This document shows positions 131-48,873 of a stretch of 62,307 bases of DNA, piece by piece. Source of the DNA: Planctomyces sp. SH-PL62 (GTDB lineage Bacteria; Planctomycetota; Planctomycetia; Planctomycetales; Planctomycetaceae); assembly GCA_945905295.1 (NCBI GenBank), contig CAMDPX010000008.1:1-62307 (forward strand), written 5' to 3'. A program made the position numbers and the translations under genes. Under the pieces are notes generated by a model. That model was given only the letters and a program-made list of their open reading frames with translations. It was not told where the DNA came from and searched no databases. Position 1 is the stretch's first letter; every line of letters begins with the position of its first letter.

Positions 131-4461
<4,331 letters not shown>

Positions 4462-4690: not shown

Positions 4691-4811
4691 GAGTCACTCC
4701 GAGGCTGTGAAAGAATTGGTAGCTGAACTCGCCAGAGTTCAGTTTTCTCGGCGAATTCTGAAGTCTGGCGACTTCAGCTACCCAAAACTTCACAGCCTCT
4801 CCGTGACTCGA
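4691..4811. repeat. Composite nested palindrome in a 373-bp intergenic gap
   Basis: Outer arms (about 21 bp, with a GAGGCTGTGAA core at 4701-4711 and TTCACAGCCTC at 4789-4799) enclose a separate inner palindrome of the GTAGC family (4719-4781), itself made of two hairpins with CTCGCCAGAG-like tips. A further short palindrome (ACTCGACTTCGAGT) follows at about 4805-4818 and recurs near 21887. The gap 4462-4834 separates the mutase and kinase genes and holds no other recognisable feature. Confidence 0.8.
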
Positions 4812-4834: not shown

Positions 4835-6265
4835 CTACTCTGTCAGCAACTGCGAAAGCGGCGAGTCATTGCGGCTGAGGCAGCGCAGCAGTTGGGCCAG
4901 CGTGAGAATCGCATCGGTCGCCGGCACGCTCTCGCGCAGCCAGACGCGACCGGTCGCTCCCCCGCCGCAGATTGCCGCGTCGGAGCGCATCGCCTGCCAC
5001 AGGTCCGATTGCGTCCAGCCTCCCAGCCAGCAGCGTCGATTCCGTGCGGCGATGCGAGGTTGCAACCGCTCGCGAGCCGCGTTGTCGATCACGATCGCTC
5101 CGCCAGGTTGTTCGGCCCCCAAGACTTCCGCCAGCAAGCTCAGGAGATCGTCCGGAGCGAGTAAGGCCCCGATCTCATCCAACACGGCGACGTTGGCTCC
5201 GTCATCGTCAATCAGAAAACCAAAATCGGCCGACCGCGCAAGGACCGCGTTTCGCAACCGCCCCACGTCTGAGTCGTCCACATTCAACAAGTCGCGACAG
5301 CGCTGCGGGATCTCGACCCAATCCAGAGTCACCGGCAGCTTCGCGAACAGCGAATCGAGCGTCTCACGCACAAATCGCACGGAACAGGCGATGGCGACTC
5401 GCAACGGACGCAGCGCGTGGAAGTGTTGCCACAATCCCGCCAAATACGGCACGGACGCGGGAAACACTCGCTGCATTCCCCCTTGCCGCAACGGCCGAGC
5501 GGCTCCTTGCTCACAGCGATCGTGAATGTCGTCCAAGGTGATCGTGCGCGGTGCGCGGCCGTCATCGTGGGGCACGTTTTCAACGTGCCCGTTTCGTTCT
5601 GGCACGTTGAAAACGTGCCCCACTTCGCTGTTCGCAGCGCGACGCCCCGCCGCCGAGATCGGCCGGCCCTGTTTGCCAACAAAATCCAGCCCGGTCCACG
5701 ACGGCTCGCAACCATGCCCGGAGATCAGCACCCCTCCCGCCGCCTGAAGATGCGCAACCGCGAATCGAAAACAAGGGGCCGAGGTTTGACTGATATCGAC
5801 CACTTGGCAGCTCATACGCCGCAACGCCGCCGCGACTCCCGTGACAATGTCGGGAGACGACGGCCGCTCATCAAAGCCGACCACCACCACCGGCCCGCTG
5901 CGGCGAATCGGACGTTTTGAATTCGCGTCACGCAGGTCGCTGCGCCCCGTCAACGGCAGCGACTCCCACAACAGACTCGCAAACGCAGCCGCCAGTTCGC
6001 CAGCCTTTTGCCGAGTCAGGTCATTCAGATACACGCCGCGCACGCCCTCCAGCGTGAATAACGAACGCTCCGACAAACTCGGTCGAGCAGAGTCATCTTC
6101 CGCGAATTGCGGTTGTGGAAGCTGCCCAGTCTCCTGCCGATGCGAGCATTCGCGGCACTTCGGATAAAACGCCGCCAACCGCGACAGATGCACCGCACGC
6201 GAGATCGCATGCGACTCACCGGGGCAGACGTATTGCGGTTCAAGCGTGGGCAGGAGCGAAAGCAT
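4835..6265 (-). CDS. Degenerate phosphohexomutase (phosphomannomutase/phosphoglucomutase-like)
   Basis: 476 residues with an alpha-D-phosphohexomutase skeleton: GVRGVYLNDLT near 74-84 matches the family's opening, VVVGFDERPSSP near 127-138 the sugar-phosphate region, and GGVLISG..CEPSWTGL near 177-193 the active-site loop. The loop normally reads TASHNP with a phospho-serine; here His184 is at that place in an ungapped alignment. The metal loop DGDxDR reads DDDGAN (353-358). Both changes suggest it does not catalyse phosphoryl transfer. The first 70 residues include a Cys pair (CREC) that could be part of a small zinc site. Residues 216-233 are encoded by an inserted palindromic repeat. It starts at ATG 6265 and diverges from holA across a repeat-rich gap. 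Confidence 0.75.
   Translation of the reverse strand: MLSLLPTLEPQYVCPGESHAISRAVHLSRLAAFYPKCRECSHRQETGQLPQPQFAEDDSARPSLSERSLFTLEGVRGVYLNDLTRQKAGELAAAFASLLWESLPLTGRSDLRDANSKRPIRRSGPVVVVGFDERPSSPDIVTGVAAALRRMSCQVVDISQTSAPCFRFAVAHLQAAGGVLISGHGCEPSWTGLDFVGKQGRPISAAGRRAANSEVGHVFNVPERNGHVENVPHDDGRAPRTITLDDIHDRCEQGAARPLRQGGMQRVFPASVPYLAGLWQHFHALRPLRVAIACSVRFVRETLDSLFAKLPVTLDWVEIPQRCRDLLNVDDSDVGRLRNAVLARSADFGFLIDDDGANVAVLDEIGALLAPDDLLSLLAEVLGAEQPGGAIVIDNAARERLQPRIAARNRRCWLGGWTQSDLWQAMRSDAAICGGGATGRVWLRESVPATDAILTLAQLLRCLSRNDSPLSQLLTE
5567..5623. repeat. GHV-type palindromic repeat inside the mutase gene
   Basis: A 57-bp near-perfect palindrome with arms starting GTGGGGCACGTTTTCAACG and ending in the complement. 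Its length is a multiple of three and it is read in frame, giving the peptide GHVFNVP-ERN-GHVENVPH. The same element occurs at 30857, 38954, 39892 and 48811. Confidence 0.9.
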
Positions 6266-17797: not shown

Positions 17798-17873
17798 TTC
17801 GGAAAACGATCGGTGAACAGTCAGAACACGGGCGATTCGGAAAACGATCGGTGAACAGTCAGAACACGGGCGA
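17798..17873. repeat. Perfect 38-bp tandem duplication
   Basis: Two adjacent identical 38-bp units (17798-17835 and 17836-17873), each starting TTCGGAAAACGATCGG and ending ACACGGGCGA, lie just upstream of the thioredoxin-like gene's ATG (17789), where its promoter would be expected. Confidence 0.9.
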
Positions 17874-21921: not shown

Positions 21922-24900
21922 TCATTTGCCGTTCGCCTCTTCAAGCCCCGCGAGGAGTGCCTTGGCCGCTTTCACGTCGGGCATGTCGAAGCCTTCCGTA
22001 AACCAGTTGTAGAGCGGTTCCAAATGCTGGCGGACCTCTGCGAGCTGACCTCGCTTCTGCCAGACTTTGCAGAGATGCAGCATGGTCCGCAGTTCGTACA
22101 TCCTCGCCCCTTGCCGAATGGCGACCGCGAGCGCTTCGCGGTACGCCACCTCGGCTTGGTCCAGGTCGCCCCGATCGAAGGCAAAGTCGCCGCGCCAGCG
22201 GAGCAGTTCGGCGTGCATGAGGTACTCGCCGCCGCTTTGATCGGCGAAGGCTTGGTCGAGCTGCTTGACTGCCGCGTCACGTTGTCCAGTTTGCCACAGC
22301 GCGTCGGCGAGATGGCCTCGGTACTTCGGAAACAAAATGAACGAGCCGGTGGCTTCCAACTGCGTGAGAGCCTGGCGCAACGCCTCGATGGCTTCGTCGA
22401 AGCGACCGAGATGTTTCAGGCCGACACCCTTGCAGCCGATCCCGAGCGCCACCCAGAACGCAAACCCTTGTTCGTCCGCGATGCGGCGGCAGCGTTCGCC
22501 GTATTCGATCGCCTTGTCACCGAGCCCGGCGAATTCGTAGGTTTGCCCCACCTTCCATTCGGTCATCTGTAGCGTAAAGACGTGCTTGAGGTCGGCCGCT
22601 AAATCAAGAGCCTCTTGCAGCCGAGCGAAGGCTTGATCGGCATAGCCCAACTGCCAGAGCGACATGCCCAGATACGCCAAGTTGAGCGGCCCGCTGTTTT
22701 GCTGCGTAATCTTCGCGAATTCGATGCTGGCTTCGCGGTGATGGTGCTGCGAGCCGATCTCCGCATGGATGCACGCCGTCGGGAAGTCTCCCGCGTAAAA
22801 CGACGTGCAGTTCTGAGCCCAATGCGCTTCGGCCAGCATCCCCGGCCCTTGAGCGGCCTCAGCCAGAGCGATGACTTCGGGACAGCGCTGGTAGCAGTCC
22901 GCAAATCGGCCACGGATGAAGAGCCATTCCCAGTTCGCGCACAGCACCGGAAACAGCGGAGCCCCGTCGCCCAGATTCCGGCAAATCTCGATGCACCGAT
23001 TCTGCACCGGTTCGACTTCCGGAGCCGCATAGCCTTGCAGCGCCATCAGCACGCCACTGATCGGCAGCTTTAAGCCCAGCTCCAGCATGTCGCGCTGCGG
23101 TGACGGAGGCAGCGTCATCGTCAGGGCCAGACCACGCTCGAAGTGCCGAATCGCTTCGACGTTCGCCGACTGCTCCTGCGACTTCTGTCCGGCCTTCAGC
23201 CAGTATTGAATCGCCTTGTCGGTCACCCCGGCCTCGGTGAAGTGATGCGCCAGCAGAGCCGGTTGCGAGTTGACGACGTCTGCGAATTGTGTCTCCAAAA
23301 CTTCGCCGATGCGTTGATGACACGCCTGACGCTTCTTGGTGAGCATCGACCGATAGGCCGCATCTTGCAGCAGCGCATGTTTGAAGATGTAGCTCGCCTC
23401 GGCGGCTTGTCCTTTGTGAAAGAGGATCTCCGCTTTGACCAGCTTGTCGAGTTCGTGTTGCAGATCGGCTGCGGGCAGCGTGCAGGATGCGGCCAGCAGT
23501 TCGAAGCTGAACTCGCGGCCGATGGTTGCAGCAAGCTGAATGACTTCGCGGTCGGCGGCCATGCGATCGAGCCGAGCCAGCAGCAGATCGTGCAATGTCG
23601 CCGGGATGACATTCAGCAGCGACGCGGCATCGGCTCCGGCATCCGCGCGATCCAAAATGCCCGACTCGACGATGACGACGGTGAATTCCTCGATGAACAG
23701 CGGAATGCCGTCCGTGCGGTCGATGACTTGTTGCAGGATCGCTTCCGGGATGTCGCGGCGCTGCGTGCGCTTCCGCATCATCTCGCCGATCTGCCGCTTG
23801 GTCAGACGGCTCAGCGCGATTTGAGTCTGATGCGGCTTACTCTTCCAGGGCGTCTCGAACTCCGGGCGGAATGTCAGCAGACTCAGCACGCGGCCGCTCT
23901 CAAACGCCGAGACGTACTTTTCGAGCAATTCCAACGTCGACGGATCGAGCCAGTGCAAGTCTTCGACAATGAAAAGCACCGCGCTGACGGCGACCAACTT
24001 CTTCAGCCACTTCAGCAGCAACTCTTCGGTCCGTTCCTTGAGCTTCTGCGGCGACAACGCCGGCACCGGGAAACGAGCATCCGTCGGCACGCTCAGCAGC
24101 CCACAAAACAATGCGACGTTCTCGGCCGATTCAAGTTTCAATTCGCGCAGATACCGCACCACAGTTTCGAGCCGTACTTCGGCGGACTGACTTTCAAAGT
24201 CCAGCAACCGCGAGAAGAACTCCACAATCGGGAAGAAGCTCGTCCCTTGATGATACTGCGAGCAGCGGAGTTCGATGACGGCAGCTCCTTCTGAGTCCTC
24301 TCGAATGACGTGCTCGCGCAGCTCGCGGATCAGCCGCGACTTGCCCAGCCCCGCGTCGCCGATCAACAGCACGATCTGGCCAAGTTCGTCCAGCGCCTGT
24401 TCCCAACGATCTTTGAGGATCGTCAATTCCGTGTCGCGGCCAACCAACGGTGTCAGGTTGCCCGGATCGACCAGATCGACTCGATTCCGCGAAGCCGCTT
24501 CCTTGGTGACTTTGAACAGCTCGGCCGGCTGAGACATGCCGCGCACGCGCTGCGGCCCCAGCGACTCGCACTCGAAGTACAACGCCACTCGCTGATGCGC
24601 CGCCGCGCTGAGGACGATTGATCCCGGTTCGGTGATCGTGTTCAGTTTCACGGCCATGTTGCGCGCGTCGCCGACCAGCGAAATCCCCGCGACTTTCCCA
24701 TCGCCGACTACTTCGGCCACCGCTTCCCCCGAGTGAATCGTGACCCACGCTTGATTCGCGGAGGGTAGGTTCGCGTTCCGCTGACTGTAGCCCGACCCCT
24801 TGTGGGAGGGTTGATTGCCTCCCTTTGCCGAACCATCCAGACCACAAGGGCCTGGGCGACACTCGTTCGCGGCGAAGTCGCGCATGACCTGCAACGCCAC

Positions 24901-26496
24901 ACGCACGGCCCGCTGCGCGGCATCCTCAAACGCTTGCGGAAAGCCAAAGCAGGTGATGACTTCTTGGCCCGAACCGAGCACGGTGGCACCGCCTAACTTG
25001 GCGGCTTGCTCGCTGATGAGCGACGCAAAGGACTGAGCTTGCTCGTGCAGTTGTTCCGAATGCGAGGTCGCCGAAGTGTCCGAGAGGGAACTGTCCTCGG
25101 CTTCGTAATTGAAGATGGCGACCGTGACCTGCCGCAATTCGGCATCGCGCCGCGACCGACTCGATGAGGCCGAGTCACTGTGATGCCCTGAATCGGAGCC
25201 AAAACTCGATGATTTGGAATCGGGGTCGGGGCGAAAACTCATCGTCGGCGACAGGTCGCCGGCCCGGCCCAGAAATCGCGACAAATCTTCGGCAAAGTCT
25301 GCGGCTGAGGCATGCCGCTCCGACGGCGCTTTCGCGATCGCCTTCAGACAAATCGCGTCGATCTCGGCGGGGAGTTCGCGACGCAAACTCGATGGCGGAG
25401 TCGCCGGACGCGACACAATTTGTCCAAAGATCGAAGCGGCAGATCCTTCAAACGGCCGCTGCCCCGTGACCATCACATACAAGATCACACCCAACGCATA
25501 CACGTCGGTCGCTGGTCCGATCTCGTGATGCCGCGCCTCGACTTGTTCGGGAGCCATGTACGCTGGGCTGCCGAAGATCGCGCCGGTTTGAGTCAGCTCG
25601 ACTTCGCCGGCGATCTGCCGCCGAGCCAAACCAAAATCCATGATGATCGGCTCGAGATCGCTGGTCAGCATGATGTTGGCCGGCTTGAGATCGCGATGGA
25701 CGATGCCGGCCTCATGAGCTTTCTGTACCGCCAGCGCGACCTTCTTCAACAGCGCCGCTGCTTGCAACAGGCCCAGCCCGCCCGCCTCTTTCAGCTTTTT
25801 GGAGAGCGGCTGCCCGTCGATGAAAGCCATCGTCAAAAAGTACCACTGCTCGAAACGTCCGACATCGTAGACCGGACACAGGTTCGCGTGTTGCACCGTC
25901 GCCATCGCACGCGCCTCGCGATAGAAGCGCTGAACGGCCTCGGCATCATCGTCGTCACGAAAGAACGGAATCTTCAGCGCGACCTTGCGATCCAATTGCC
26001 CATCGTGCGCGAGATACACCGCCCCCATGCCGCCCCGGCCCAGTTCCCGCTCGATCCGGTAGCGGCCGAACTGCTCAGGCAACGCCTCGGGTTTACCGGC
26101 GCTCGGCTGCTCCGCCGTTTTCGAGCGTTCGTGCTTGCCCCCCACCTGCCGCGTCTGGCCTTCGCGAGCCGTCTCGACCTTCGGTGCAGAACCGGGGACG
26201 CTTCCCAGCAATGCGGATTGCTCAACCAGCTTCGAGATCATTTCTGAGTATTTGGGAAATCGAGCAACGTACTCGGCGGACGAGACGGAGTCCCCCGCGG
26301 CGCGCCGAAAGCTGAACTCCACGAGCAACAACTCCGGCAGCAGCGCGGATTGCAATTCTTCCGGAACAAACGGCAAGAAGTCTTCGATCCGTGGTTGCCG
26401 ACCACCATCTAGCGACGACTTGAACGCATCCTTGGCGAAGTCGAGACGGTGTTGATCGAGCGAATTCAAAGACTCGTTCCGCAAAGGCGATGTCAT
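21922..26496 (-). CDS. Giant Ser/Thr kinase / cyclase-like / AAA ATPase / TPR regulator
   Basis: About 1524 residues, the intact paralogue of the gene at 131-4461. Kinase: GRGGMG near 155, VHRDLKPANIML near 267, MDFGLARR near 285, GSPAYMAPEQ next. A class III cyclase-like domain spans about 449-660, but its metal sites read IFNYEAED (Asn for Asp) and GSGQEVITCFG (no GDG), so cyclase activity is doubtful. An AAA/STAND ATPase has GDAGLGKSRLI near 715 and FIVEDLHWLD as Walker B; the last 400-450 residues are TPR-like. This layout is typical of large kinase-ATPase regulators. Start at ATG 26496 (MTSPLRNE), shared with the paralogue; upstream starts at 26508 and 26535 are possible. A palindromic repeat at 24790-24857 encodes an extra loop in the cyclase-like domain. 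Confidence 0.9.
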   Translation of the reverse strand: MTSPLRNESLNSLDQHRLDFAKDAFKSSLDGGRQPRIEDFLPFVPEELQSALLPELLLVEFSFRRAAGDSVSSAEYVARFPKYSEMISKLVEQSALLGSVPGSAPKVETAREGQTRQVGGKHERSKTAEQPSAGKPEALPEQFGRYRIERELGRGGMGAVYLAHDGQLDRKVALKIPFFRDDDDAEAVQRFYREARAMATVQHANLCPVYDVGRFEQWYFLTMAFIDGQPLSKKLKEAGGLGLLQAAALLKKVALAVQKAHEAGIVHRDLKPANIMLTSDLEPIIMDFGLARRQIAGEVELTQTGAIFGSPAYMAPEQVEARHHEIGPATDVYALGVILYVMVTGQRPFEGSAASIFGQIVSRPATPPSSLRRELPAEIDAICLKAIAKAPSERHASAADFAEDLSRFLGRAGDLSPTMSFRPDPDSKSSSFGSDSGHHSDSASSSRSRRDAELRQVTVAIFNYEAEDSSLSDTSATSHSEQLHEQAQSFASLISEQAAKLGGATVLGSGQEVITCFGFPQAFEDAAQRAVRVALQVMRDFAANECRPGPCGLDGSAKGGNQPSHKGSGYSQRNANLPSANQAWVTIHSGEAVAEVVGDGKVAGISLVGDARNMAVKLNTITEPGSIVLSAAAHQRVALYFECESLGPQRVRGMSQPAELFKVTKEAASRNRVDLVDPGNLTPLVGRDTELTILKDRWEQALDELGQIVLLIGDAGLGKSRLIRELREHVIREDSEGAAVIELRCSQYHQGTSFFPIVEFFSRLLDFESQSAEVRLETVVRYLRELKLESAENVALFCGLLSVPTDARFPVPALSPQKLKERTEELLLKWLKKLVAVSAVLFIVEDLHWLDPSTLELLEKYVSAFESGRVLSLLTFRPEFETPWKSKPHQTQIALSRLTKRQIGEMMRKRTQRRDIPEAILQQVIDRTDGIPLFIEEFTVVIVESGILDRADAGADAASLLNVIPATLHDLLLARLDRMAADREVIQLAATIGREFSFELLAASCTLPAADLQHELDKLVKAEILFHKGQAAEASYIFKHALLQDAAYRSMLTKKRQACHQRIGEVLETQFADVVNSQPALLAHHFTEAGVTDKAIQYWLKAGQKSQEQSANVEAIRHFERGLALTMTLPPSPQRDMLELGLKLPISGVLMALQGYAAPEVEPVQNRCIEICRNLGDGAPLFPVLCANWEWLFIRGRFADCYQRCPEVIALAEAAQGPGMLAEAHWAQNCTSFYAGDFPTACIHAEIGSQHHHREASIEFAKITQQNSGPLNLAYLGMSLWQLGYADQAFARLQEALDLAADLKHVFTLQMTEWKVGQTYEFAGLGDKAIEYGERCRRIADEQGFAFWVALGIGCKGVGLKHLGRFDEAIEALRQALTQLEATGSFILFPKYRGHLADALWQTGQRDAAVKQLDQAFADQSGGEYLMHAELLRWRGDFAFDRGDLDQAEVAYREALAVAIRQGARMYELRTMLHLCKVWQKRGQLAEVRQHLEPLYNWFTEGFDMPDVKAAKALLAGLEEANGK
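24790..24857. repeat. Palindromic insertion inside the giant kinase gene
   Basis: Imperfect 16-bp arms (24790-24805 and 24842-24857, CCACAAGGGCCTGGGC and near-complement) with an inner GGGAGG/CCTCCC pair. It is read in frame as roughly 26 extra residues (around CGLDGSAKGGNQPSHKG), absent from the aligned site of the paralogue, where the flanking residues RD(L/F)A and NQAWV are directly joined by a shorter linker. Confidence 0.8.
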
Positions 26497-30221: not shown

Positions 30222-31592
30222 TCAGGCGAGCGGGGCGGCATCCATCGCTTGATGTCTGGGTTCCACCAACCGCAGCGAGGCCAGCCAGCCCAGTGCGATT
30301 GCGCCGCTGACTCCGATGAAGACGCGCTCAAAGCCCCCCGGCCAGTCCACCAGCCAACCCACCAGCGGCGCGAAGATAAACGGAACCGCCAAGCAGGCGT
30401 GCAACGTCGCCACATACAACGGATGCTGAGCCGGTTCGGTCAGCTCCAAAGCGTAGTTGGTCAGCGTCTTGATCGTCACCGGCGTCAGCCCCAGGAAGAA
30501 GAACGTGATCCAGAAATGTTGTGGTCCCCAACCTTCAACGCCGCTGGTGAATAGCAACGCGAGCAACGGCACGCACGCCGTACCGAACACTTGCCACTGC
30601 AACGACAGCCGATTTCCAAATCGATCCGCCAGCTTCCCGGACACCCAGCTAAACAACCCCACGGCCGCGTTCTGAGCAATCACCCAGAGCATTAGCTGAT
30701 AGCCGATCTGATCGGGTGGGACATGCTGTTGTCCCAAAGTCTGAAAGTGCGGGAACAGCAACTGAATCGCAATGAACAGCATCGCCACGATCGCCAGCCG
30801 TCGAAAGTCGCGATTGTCCCGCACCAGACGATACGAAGCGCCGAGACCGCCGTCCGCGTGGGGCATGTTTTCAACGTGCCCGTCGGCGGAATCTCGATCT
30901 GGCACGAGCACGTTGGAAACGTGCCCCACGTCGGGCGGTTCCTTTACGAAGAAGCAGGTCGCTCCCGCCACCAGAAAACCCAAGCCCGAGAATCCGAAGA
31001 TGTAGCCGAAACCGCGATCCGGCAGACTCAACCAGTATTGCAACAGGAACCACGCGCCGATGATCGACGTGATCGAACCGCCGATACCAGAGAGACCCAG
31101 CAGTTCGCCGCGCCGGTCCGCTCGAATCAGTTTGCCTTGCAGCGTGCCGAAGACTTGCTGGTTCAATCCGTTCGACGCAAAGAAGATTAAATACAACAGC
31201 AAGAACGCCGGCGGCAGCCAGGCTTGGTGTTTGTTGTCAGTCAGCATCCACAGCGCCGCGACGGCCAACATCGAAAACCCTAACCCGGACGACGTTCCCA
31301 GCAGACTCCACTTCTTCACACGAGCCGCTCGCAAACGCCGCGCAAAGAAGATCGGCGGCAAGCTCTGCCCAAACCGATTGAGCACCGGCAAGCACCCGCG
31401 CAGCCATCCGGGGCTCGCGATGCTGTCCAAGAACGCCGGGATGATCACGCTCTCGGTTTTGAAGATCCACGCGAACCGCAGCAGCACGGAATACGCCGAC
31501 AGCGCCAGCAGATTGTGCGGCTCTAGCTGCAGCACCTGCGTCTCGCGGTCGCCGTCGAGAACAGCATCCGTTGCCGAGTTGTCGCGATCCAT
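30222..31592 (-). CDS. Major facilitator superfamily transporter
   Basis: 456 residues with about twelve hydrophobic segments in two halves, such as AFLLLYLIFFASNGLNQQVFG and WITFFFLGLTPVTIKTLTNYAL. Residue pattern suggests MFS; the substrate is unknown. Two peculiarities come from repeats. In the central loop a GHV palindrome (30857-30930) encodes DVGHVSNVLVPDRDSADGHVENMPH. The last residues MDAAPLA and the stop are read from a half copy of the GCGAGCGGGGCGGC repeat (30224-30240). Convergent with the acyltransferase gene, 14 bp apart. Confidence 0.82.
   Translation of the reverse strand: MDRDNSATDAVLDGDRETQVLQLEPHNLLALSAYSVLLRFAWIFKTESVIIPAFLDSIASPGWLRGCLPVLNRFGQSLPPIFFARRLRAARVKKWSLLGTSSGLGFSMLAVAALWMLTDNKHQAWLPPAFLLLYLIFFASNGLNQQVFGTLQGKLIRADRRGELLGLSGIGGSITSIIGAWFLLQYWLSLPDRGFGYIFGFSGLGFLVAGATCFFVKEPPDVGHVSNVLVPDRDSADGHVENMPHADGGLGASYRLVRDNRDFRRLAIVAMLFIAIQLLFPHFQTLGQQHVPPDQIGYQLMLWVIAQNAAVGLFSWVSGKLADRFGNRLSLQWQVFGTACVPLLALLFTSGVEGWGPQHFWITFFFLGLTPVTIKTLTNYALELTEPAQHPLYVATLHACLAVPFIFAPLVGWLVDWPGGFERVFIGVSGAIALGWLASLRLVEPRHQAMDAAPLA
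30857..30930. repeat. GHV-type palindromic repeat inside the MFS gene
   Basis: Arms CGTGGGGCATGTTTTCAACG and complement around a 20-bp spacer, read in frame within the cytoplasmic loop between the two halves of the transporter, where an insertion would be tolerated. Confidence 0.88.
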
Positions 31593-38932: not shown

Positions 38933-39033
38933 CCGAGGCTGTGAATAAATGACGTGGGGCACGTTTTCAACGTGCCCAATCAGCCTATTCTCGAGCACGT
39001 TGAAAACGTGCTCCACGAAAACTTCACAGCCCC
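38933..39033. repeat. GHV palindrome framed by GAGGCTGTGAA arms
   Basis: The core 38954-39016 is a GHV-type palindrome (GTGGGGCACGTTTTCAACG). It is flanked by GAGGCTGTGAA at about 38935-38945 and TTCACAGCCCCTC at 39024-39036, the same outer arms that enclose a different core at 4691-4811. Non-coding. Confidence 0.82.
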
Positions 39034-39891: not shown

Positions 39892-39953
39892 GTGGGGCAC
39901 GTTTTCAACGTGCCCTCTCAAGCAGTGACGGGCACGTTGAAAACGTGCCCCAC
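39892..39953. repeat. GHV-type palindromic repeat between rsmE and the ATPase gene
   Basis: A 62-bp palindrome with arms GTGGGGCACGTTTTCAACG and complement, lying between divergent starts (rsmE at 39854, ATPase at 39968). It is the best-preserved copy. Confidence 0.9.
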
Positions 39954-48810: not shown

Positions 48811-48873
48811 GTCGGGCACGTTTTCAGCCTGCCCGTTCCGCTTGTTTTCGAGCACGTTGAAAACGTGCTCCAC
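48811..48873. repeat. Degenerate GHV-type palindromic repeat
   Basis: GTCGGGCACGTTTTCAGCC with an AACGTGCTCCAC right arm. It has several mismatches to the other copies and sits 6 bp after the Uma2 stop codon. Confidence 0.82.

Follow-up and report, generated by a model that had tools for sequence, protein, structure and literature searches.

How does a phosphohexomutase-like gene come to carry, in its middle, a near-perfect palindrome of 57 bp that is read through without breaking the frame, and what kind of element is it? The gene lies within 62,307 nucleotides of contig CAMDPX010000008.1 of Planctomyces sp. SH-PL62, the whole stretch of DNA that was analysed (hereafter the window). The features of the locus are:

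4835–6265, minus strand: host gene, phosphohexomutase-like (Pfam PGM_PMM_I), with the insert as residues 215–233 of 476
5567–5589, plus strand: left REP unit, with GTGG foot, 8-bp stem and 3-nt loop
5590–5600, no strand: spacer of the REP pair, which together with adjoining bases codes for ERN in the minus-strand reading
5601–5623, minus strand: right REP unit, a perfect inverted complement of the left one

The element consists of GTGGGGCACGTTTTCAACGTGCC, an 11-nt spacer and GGCACGTTGAAAACGTGCCCCAC; its 23-nt arms are perfectly complementary, and 48 of the 57 positions are self-complementary. As single-stranded DNA the whole is predicted to fold into one long hairpin (-30.5 kcal/mol, z -9.1; 0 of 200 shuffles as good), and one half folded alone has the GTGG foot directly (0 nt gap) before the 8-bp stem with its 3-nt loop. 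The minus-strand ORF crosses the palindrome with no stop, reading VGHVFNVP-ERN-GHVENVPH. Arms, fold and open ORF together bear out the initial claim of the sequence-only reading, a near-perfect palindrome that leaves the frame of the mutase gene unbroken. One phase of the element (VGHV[FS]NVP...GHVENVPH) is open and mostly polar, a second (WGTFSTC...GTLKTCP) is likewise open, and in the third the canonical right unit yields a TGA stop. An AlphaFold prediction for the mutase, made with 11 sequences from the genus, reached a mean pLDDT of 39.3 and a pTM of 0.30, and no conclusion was drawn from it.

Four further copies had been reported in the window, and all of them are real, the coding one starting at 30858, one base from the 30857 first given:

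30222–31592, minus strand: host gene, major facilitator superfamily (MFS)
30858–30929, minus strand: REP pair of 72 nt in the MFS gene, in the same phase as the mutase copy (residues 222–245 of 456)
38954–39016, no strand: REP pair of the 63-nt class, non-coding, within a larger element with GAGGCTGTGAA / TTCACAGCC arms
39892–39953, no strand: REP pair of 62 nt, intergenic, with unlike frames on either side
48811–48873, no strand: REP pair of the 63-nt class, diverged and non-coding

The MFS insert lies between hydrophobic spans 194–217 and 261–287, and this copy is common to the relatives G002, G007, G009 and G010. The statement that the same element recurs elsewhere holds for the units, but the pairs at 38954 and 48811 belong to a 63-nt class with a conserved spacer, the majority of its members being embedded in a larger element with GAGGCTGTGAA arms, whereas the mutase copy belongs to a class with variable spacers. 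The outer arms GAGGCTGTGAA .. TTCACAGCC are alike at 4701–4799 and at about 38935–39033, around different inner pairs (GGTAGCTGAA..TTCAGCTACC at the former, a GTGGGG pair at the latter); this is one element with its core swapped within one genome. The window also holds an exact 38-nt tandem duplication (17798–17873) and, at about 1355–4031 and 23279–26063, several repeats of 26–300 nt at a spacing of about 22 kb and an identity of about 73–88%, which on their sequence suggest two paralogous genes.

The element copies are not chance matches. At up to 3 mismatches this draft genome (8.6 Mb, 476 contigs; G000 below) has 447 half-sites (226 + 221) against 0 in the reversed control, and 1,262,307 of its bases yielded 53, the reversed pattern yielding 0. 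The family is present in all 12 genus genomes, with 8 to 388 half-sites each at up to 2 mismatches; outside the genus it turned up in 1 of 13 further genomes of the taxonomic family and in 1 of 15 further ones of the class. Named records encoding the mutase at 68% or more are metagenome-assembled genomes labelled Planctomyces, Planctomycetota, Planctomycetia or Planctomycetaceae, and two bear the doubtful label Candidatus Kuenenia.

For the arrangement of the copies we took 121 stretches of G000 (2,422,259 bases: the window, 80 stretches by contig number and 40 mostly chosen for their copies). They contain 105 inverted pairs and 12 singles; a separate count of 193 halves showed no other close arrangement. 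Three of the pairs lie too close to a stretch end for classification. Flank motifs of a larger element accompany 27 pairs, of which 26 are 63 nt long with a conserved spacer; 9 of the 27 have coding sequence on one side, 17 on neither, and 1 is doubtful. The flank motif that defines this class is a loose one; L244_5680, an 81-nt pair read in frame, is probably misassigned to it. The other 75 pairs are short REPINs whose spacers are unrelated from copy to copy, which simple copying of a whole pair does not explain and which counts against the REPIN explanation. Compensating stem subtypes occur (CACG/CGTG, CAGG/CCTG, CAAG/CTTG).

The published rule for REPs requires GTAG or GTGG 0–2 nt 5' of a hairpin with a stem of 7–20 bp and a loop of 2–5 nt (PMC6006769), and the element, with GTGG, 0 nt, 8 bp and 3 nt, falls within it; its GTGG foot places it outside the CGTC class of REPs. 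High dispersed copy number (the 447 half-sites) and inverted doublets (the 105 pairs) are further features of REPs and REPINs. The likeness to GTAG/GTGG REPs and their transposase (RAYT, or TnpAREP) extends over foot, stem, doublets, copy number and a flanked RAYT in the genus (PMC3733652, PMC3116915, PMC6006769). The sequence-only reading had proposed an analogue of the Rickettsia palindromic elements (RPE). In kind this stands, as both are mobile palindromes read in frame in unrelated proteins whose orthologues lack them. The element differs from RPE in its GTGG foot, RAYT association and free-living host, and presumably in sequence; RPE-4 and RPE-6 are counted as CGTC REPs in PMC3733652. 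It is better filed as a GTGG REP doublet, or REPIN, with a RAYT in the genus. The coding palindromes of Nematomorpha mitochondria are likewise inverted repeats in protein-coding genes, but they are mitochondrial and longer, up to 284 bp (PMC6649704).

Among the 13 Y1_Tnp matches in G000, none has a GTGGGG pair in the flanks covered (up to 1.5 kb on each side), and the nearest trace is a single half-site with 5 mismatches beside L039. L041 and L042 are flanked on either side by CGTAGGTTGGGACTC pairs, and L037, L038 and L039 likewise by GGGGTCGGG pairs. A RAYT flanked by units of the same kind is found in G006, where a 248-aa ORF matches NF047646 at 81.1 bits (a narrow pass at a cut-off of 80), matches no Pfam family at E 0.001, and is flanked on both sides by GTGGGGCAGG units. 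A relative in G001 (61% identical, in two overlapping frames) is flanked on both sides by GTGGGGCACG units, the inverted unit first. No cognate RAYT was found in G000, where the best match to the G006 protein is just 32–33% identical; the G000 protein that has GTAG palindromes reaches 58.4 bits, short of the NF047646 cut-off. Other RAYT-like genes of the genus adjoin other palindromes, such as GTGGCGCACGCGGCTCGCGTGCG beside L271, the family seen at the L063 site in G007. At the C-terminus of the G006 RAYT (L270) the frame enters its own REP, ending ..ISVGQVFNLPGLFERMLGES, and the transposase itself seems, from this sequence, to be decorated by its own REP. In one REPtron a GTGG foot shifted the cut to CC (PMC8266576), and the stem of the present unit has CC at its 3' end. 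Published REPs likewise comprise several families, each with its own RAYT, and have in-frame intragenic copies, even in RAYT genes.

Is the mutase copy exceptional in being read in frame? Frames were called with a simple codon model trained on long ORFs, over 210 nt on each side. Coding copies in frame no more than chance would have spoken against the sequence-only reading, but in-gene copies are overwhelmingly open and in frame: 38 of the 75 short pairs have one coding frame on both sides and an open read-through. The remainder comprise 3 in the same frame with a stop, 11 on the same strand in another frame, 7 between opposite strands, 11 with coding sequence on one side and 5 on neither. Among the same-strand copies, 7 meet a stop on read-through, which points to gene junctions; the remaining 4, where read-through is open, could be either junctions or shifted frames. 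The unselected sample (81 stretches) has 26 short pairs, and 14 of them, including two from the window, are in frame within genes; 60% of random sites satisfied a nearly identical in-frame rule. The short class therefore departs from the description of REPs as mainly extragenic, a location that is usual rather than defining, since published REPs include intragenic ones (PMC3733652).

The left unit is read VGHV..NVP in 36 of the 38 in-frame copies, and two begin in the WGTFSTC/WSTISSC phase; if the two open phases are assumed equally likely, this bias has P = 2.7e-9. Having about half of its short pairs in genes (in the unselected sample) and nearly all of those in one phase sets the element apart from REPs as described in the papers cited. 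Lengths divisible by three are more frequent among in-frame copies (35 of 38 vs 13 of 37 others, P = 2e-7), but this partly follows from the definition of in frame and was kept out of the evidence. One 2445-codon ORF (L252:1805-9139, minus strand), which its motifs suggest to be polyketide-synthase-like, holds three GTGGGG pairs, and the rare WGTFSTC phase is used in one of these.

The host proteins are mutually unrelated. In a Pfam scan of ten host ORFs the insert lay outside the domain matches in seven and inside in three:

insert exactly between PSD5 (451–511) and PSD4 (539–666)
carbamoyltransferase, insert near 464–489, between the N (114–451) and C (531–721) domains
insert near 336, between two Lhr winged-helix domains
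insert near 410, after a thioredoxin-like domain
insert near 354, between PSCyt2 and PSD1
insert near 568, directly after DUF7133
insert near 421, before an ABC2 match
spermidine synthase, insert inside the domain, with the match split
gamma-glutamyltranspeptidase, insert inside the domain
GDSL lipase, insert inside the domain

A further copy lies in what its motifs suggest to be a protein kinase, between DFG and APE. The earlier idea that mobile palindromes generate new protein loops is supported in the sense of a lengthening of linkers and loops. In-frame REPs in tolerated loops, and REPs of planctomycetes, have been published before (PMC3733652, PMC6006769).

It had been suggested that the loop should be sought in mutase orthologues, and 9 of the 10 orthologues from other genus genomes lack these residues (G004, with a repeat-like match alone, was left out). 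In the tenth, from G007, a copy stands at this site that is decayed but has stayed open, with a spacer that looks alike. In the mutase tree G007 stands with the outgroups, apart from G000, G002 and G010 (support 90; G000 with G010, 81), which implies either a loss of the insert in G002 and G010 or two separate gains. The orthologues differ at this site by 60 nt, against an element of 57 nt; the extra bases are compatible with a 2–3 bp target-site repeat or with further element bases. The empty mutase sites give no support to the idea that the spacer is leftover host sequence, though at other loci it may be; two distant relatives have, at L183_15982, an unlike stretch of about the length of the element that close relatives carry there.

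Two explanations that involve no mobile insertion can be weighed here. The palindrome could be a conserved structural or regulatory feature of its gene, such as an mRNA hairpin or attenuator, as its strong predicted hairpin would allow, and intergenic copies could affect transcripts; yet the nine mutase orthologues without it, the hundreds of copies in unrelated genes, the restriction to one genus and a copy number that varies from 8 to 388 half-sites make this very improbable. Even less credible is that faulty assembly or over-called ORFs produce a spurious in-frame reading. The genome is a draft in 476 contigs and the coding calls come from our own simple codon model, but in-frame inserts recur in orthologues from other assemblies, which refutes the artefact for the loci compared; moreover, the mutase match in the named record L134 equals that of G007 in length, and Pfam matches flank the insert on both sides.

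Seventeen further coding loci were compared with up to six relatives each, giving 79 comparisons (L178_18688 gave no match). Among close relatives (G002, G010 and G007; n = 47) the site held the same family in 28 cases, another palindrome in 16 and none in 3, where "same family" allowed 5 mismatches per half and a few assignments are doubtful (e.g., L166_3805 in G010). One of the three, L183 in G002, is really the same family cut by a contig end, so that another palindrome is present in 16 of the 18 close comparisons without a GTGGGG pair. For distant relatives (G003, G009 and G011; n = 32) the counts were 11, 7 and 14, and 5 of the 11 same-family matches have no recognisable pair. Length differences were divisible by three in 78 of 79 comparisons, the exception being G007 at L185_18459 (104 nt); one TGA was flagged in the G007 match at L063. 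Some of the other occupants have GTAG or GTGG feet and some have none.

Individual loci illustrate the range. At L185_3888 all six relatives hold other palindromes; in its G007 orthologue (L231, a carbamoyltransferase linker) one pair, judged by eye, sits within the spacer of a second pair. Inserts with a decayed palindrome and a similar open peptide are kept genus-wide at L164_2662 (6 of 6 relatives) and L191_9490 (4 of 5). All that is left in the G009 orthologue of L154_9419 (L294, gamma-glutamyltranspeptidase) is one collapsed unit, AVGHVSNVPHAS, with feet on either end, resembling the double-foot REP that PMC6006769 attributes to a central deletion.

Unrelated palindromes at the same loop in sister species are a further departure from REPs as described in the papers cited. 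The shared sites might simply be hot spots, tolerant loops hit independently in each species with no replacement in place. Linkers are naturally tolerant targets, and the boundaries of unrelated palindromes at one loop are often a few to a dozen bases apart (L173_9231, L191_9490); we regard this as a serious candidate, somewhat short of an even chance. Against it, the 16 of 18 close comparisons with another palindrome contrast with some 40 strong pairs elsewhere in 143,628 bases of the relatives' loci (78 in all, about 38 of them focal), and 9 of 10 mutase orthologues have nothing at their site. Nor does independent insertion explain a change of subtype inside an otherwise alignable pair.

Such changes were seen when arms and spacers were compared separately. 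In 25 comparisons with a recognisable pair in both genomes, the scored stem position in the relative was CAGG in both halves in 11 and of the G000 type in both in 8, the remaining 6 being mixed or otherwise changed. Spacer length equalled that of G000 in 9 of the 11 CAGG-switched comparisons, where a relationship between the spacers is plain to see. In G002, G007 and G010 the identity to G000 was 0.86, 0.88 and 0.84 for the flanks, 0.92, 0.89 and 0.90 for the arms, and 0.71, 0.70 and 0.59 for the spacers. Taken together, the subtype and identity data indicate that stems at orthologous inserts switch subtype in step, one or both units at once. REP evolution through gene conversion was reportedly proposed in 1988. 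Arms that switch subtype in place, and spacers unrelated between copies, are not features of REPs as described in the papers cited. A tentative reading, to which we give appreciably less than an even chance, is that linkers and loops act as exchange sites, where unrelated REPINs swap in place, mostly in frame, and arms are homogenised per species, unit by unit. If so, several swapping families would have their own RAYT within the genus, and sister species would have proteins that differ in cassettes, about 20 to 57 residues long, which have been swapped again and again.

The same data bear on whether the peptide GHVxNVP..GHVENVPH is itself selected as a useful linker, recognition or solubility tag, which we think improbable. 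The single phase of 36 of the 38 copies would fit, as would the similar open peptides that outlast the palindrome at L164_2662 and L191_9490. However, the hosts are unrelated, nine of ten mutase orthologues do without the insert, relatives have quite different peptides at the same place, and spacers diverge faster than flanks (0.59–0.71 vs 0.84–0.88). The orientation of the TCC/TTC loop variant was tried as a sign of protein selection and rejected, the bias being equal in other transcribed-strand copies (20:3 in coding vs 9:1 in same-strand or one-side non-coding copies).

Other palindromes of this genome behave in related ways. Strong local inverted pairs number 383 in 1,262,307 bases, and a subset of 442,307 bases has 124 against 3 in Markov shuffles. 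Of 340 classified pairs, 60 are open and in frame in genes (a few of these being simple repeats), 31 are in frame with a stop, 58 lie on the same strand in another frame, 32 between opposite strands, 107 beside coding sequence on one side and 52 beside none. In-frame copies also recur for about eight further families, which each encode a peptide of their own, although the family bins overlap and the GCGCTAGC bin mixes families; as several use two phases, the one-phase rule is not general.

We consider it probable, on sequence evidence, that the element is a REPIN inserted in tolerant linkers, spread by a RAYT and filtered by frame and phase, with later turnover. Two inverted GTGG-tagged REP hairpins would be spread by a REP-associated tyrosine (Y1/HuH) transposase. 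A copy that enters a gene would survive where it meets a tolerant linker or loop, has a frame-keeping length and falls in a harmless phase, and purifying selection against stops and frameshifts would give the phase bias; the mutase copy may have survived in this way. After a loop has been opened, palindromes would keep turning over, with arms switching subtype and other families appearing in sister species, and old copies would decay into ordinary linker. Among the matches listed in a mostly non-subscription literature, the texts available describe neither unrelated palindromes succeeding each other at orthologous loops nor a one-phase bias or a REPIN class half in genes.

As judged from its DNA, this is a REPIN family with a putative RAYT in an uncultured planctomycete genus, widely read in frame in linkers and loops. 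One model of REPIN dynamics assumes that a REPIN destroys any gene it enters (PMC8049555); contrary to this assumption, the genus appears to keep many REPINs as in-frame peptides. For annotators, recurrent peptides in these proteins, among them GHVxNVP..GHVENVPH, GVGSLF..EKDSRPL and VGQAFQPD..VRLESLTY, are translated palindromes, not conserved motifs. Orthologous proteins offer insertions, changed occupants and decayed copies for comparison, which puts two questions within reach of testing: the way in which REPs move and become homogenised, and the way in which proteins acquire linkers.
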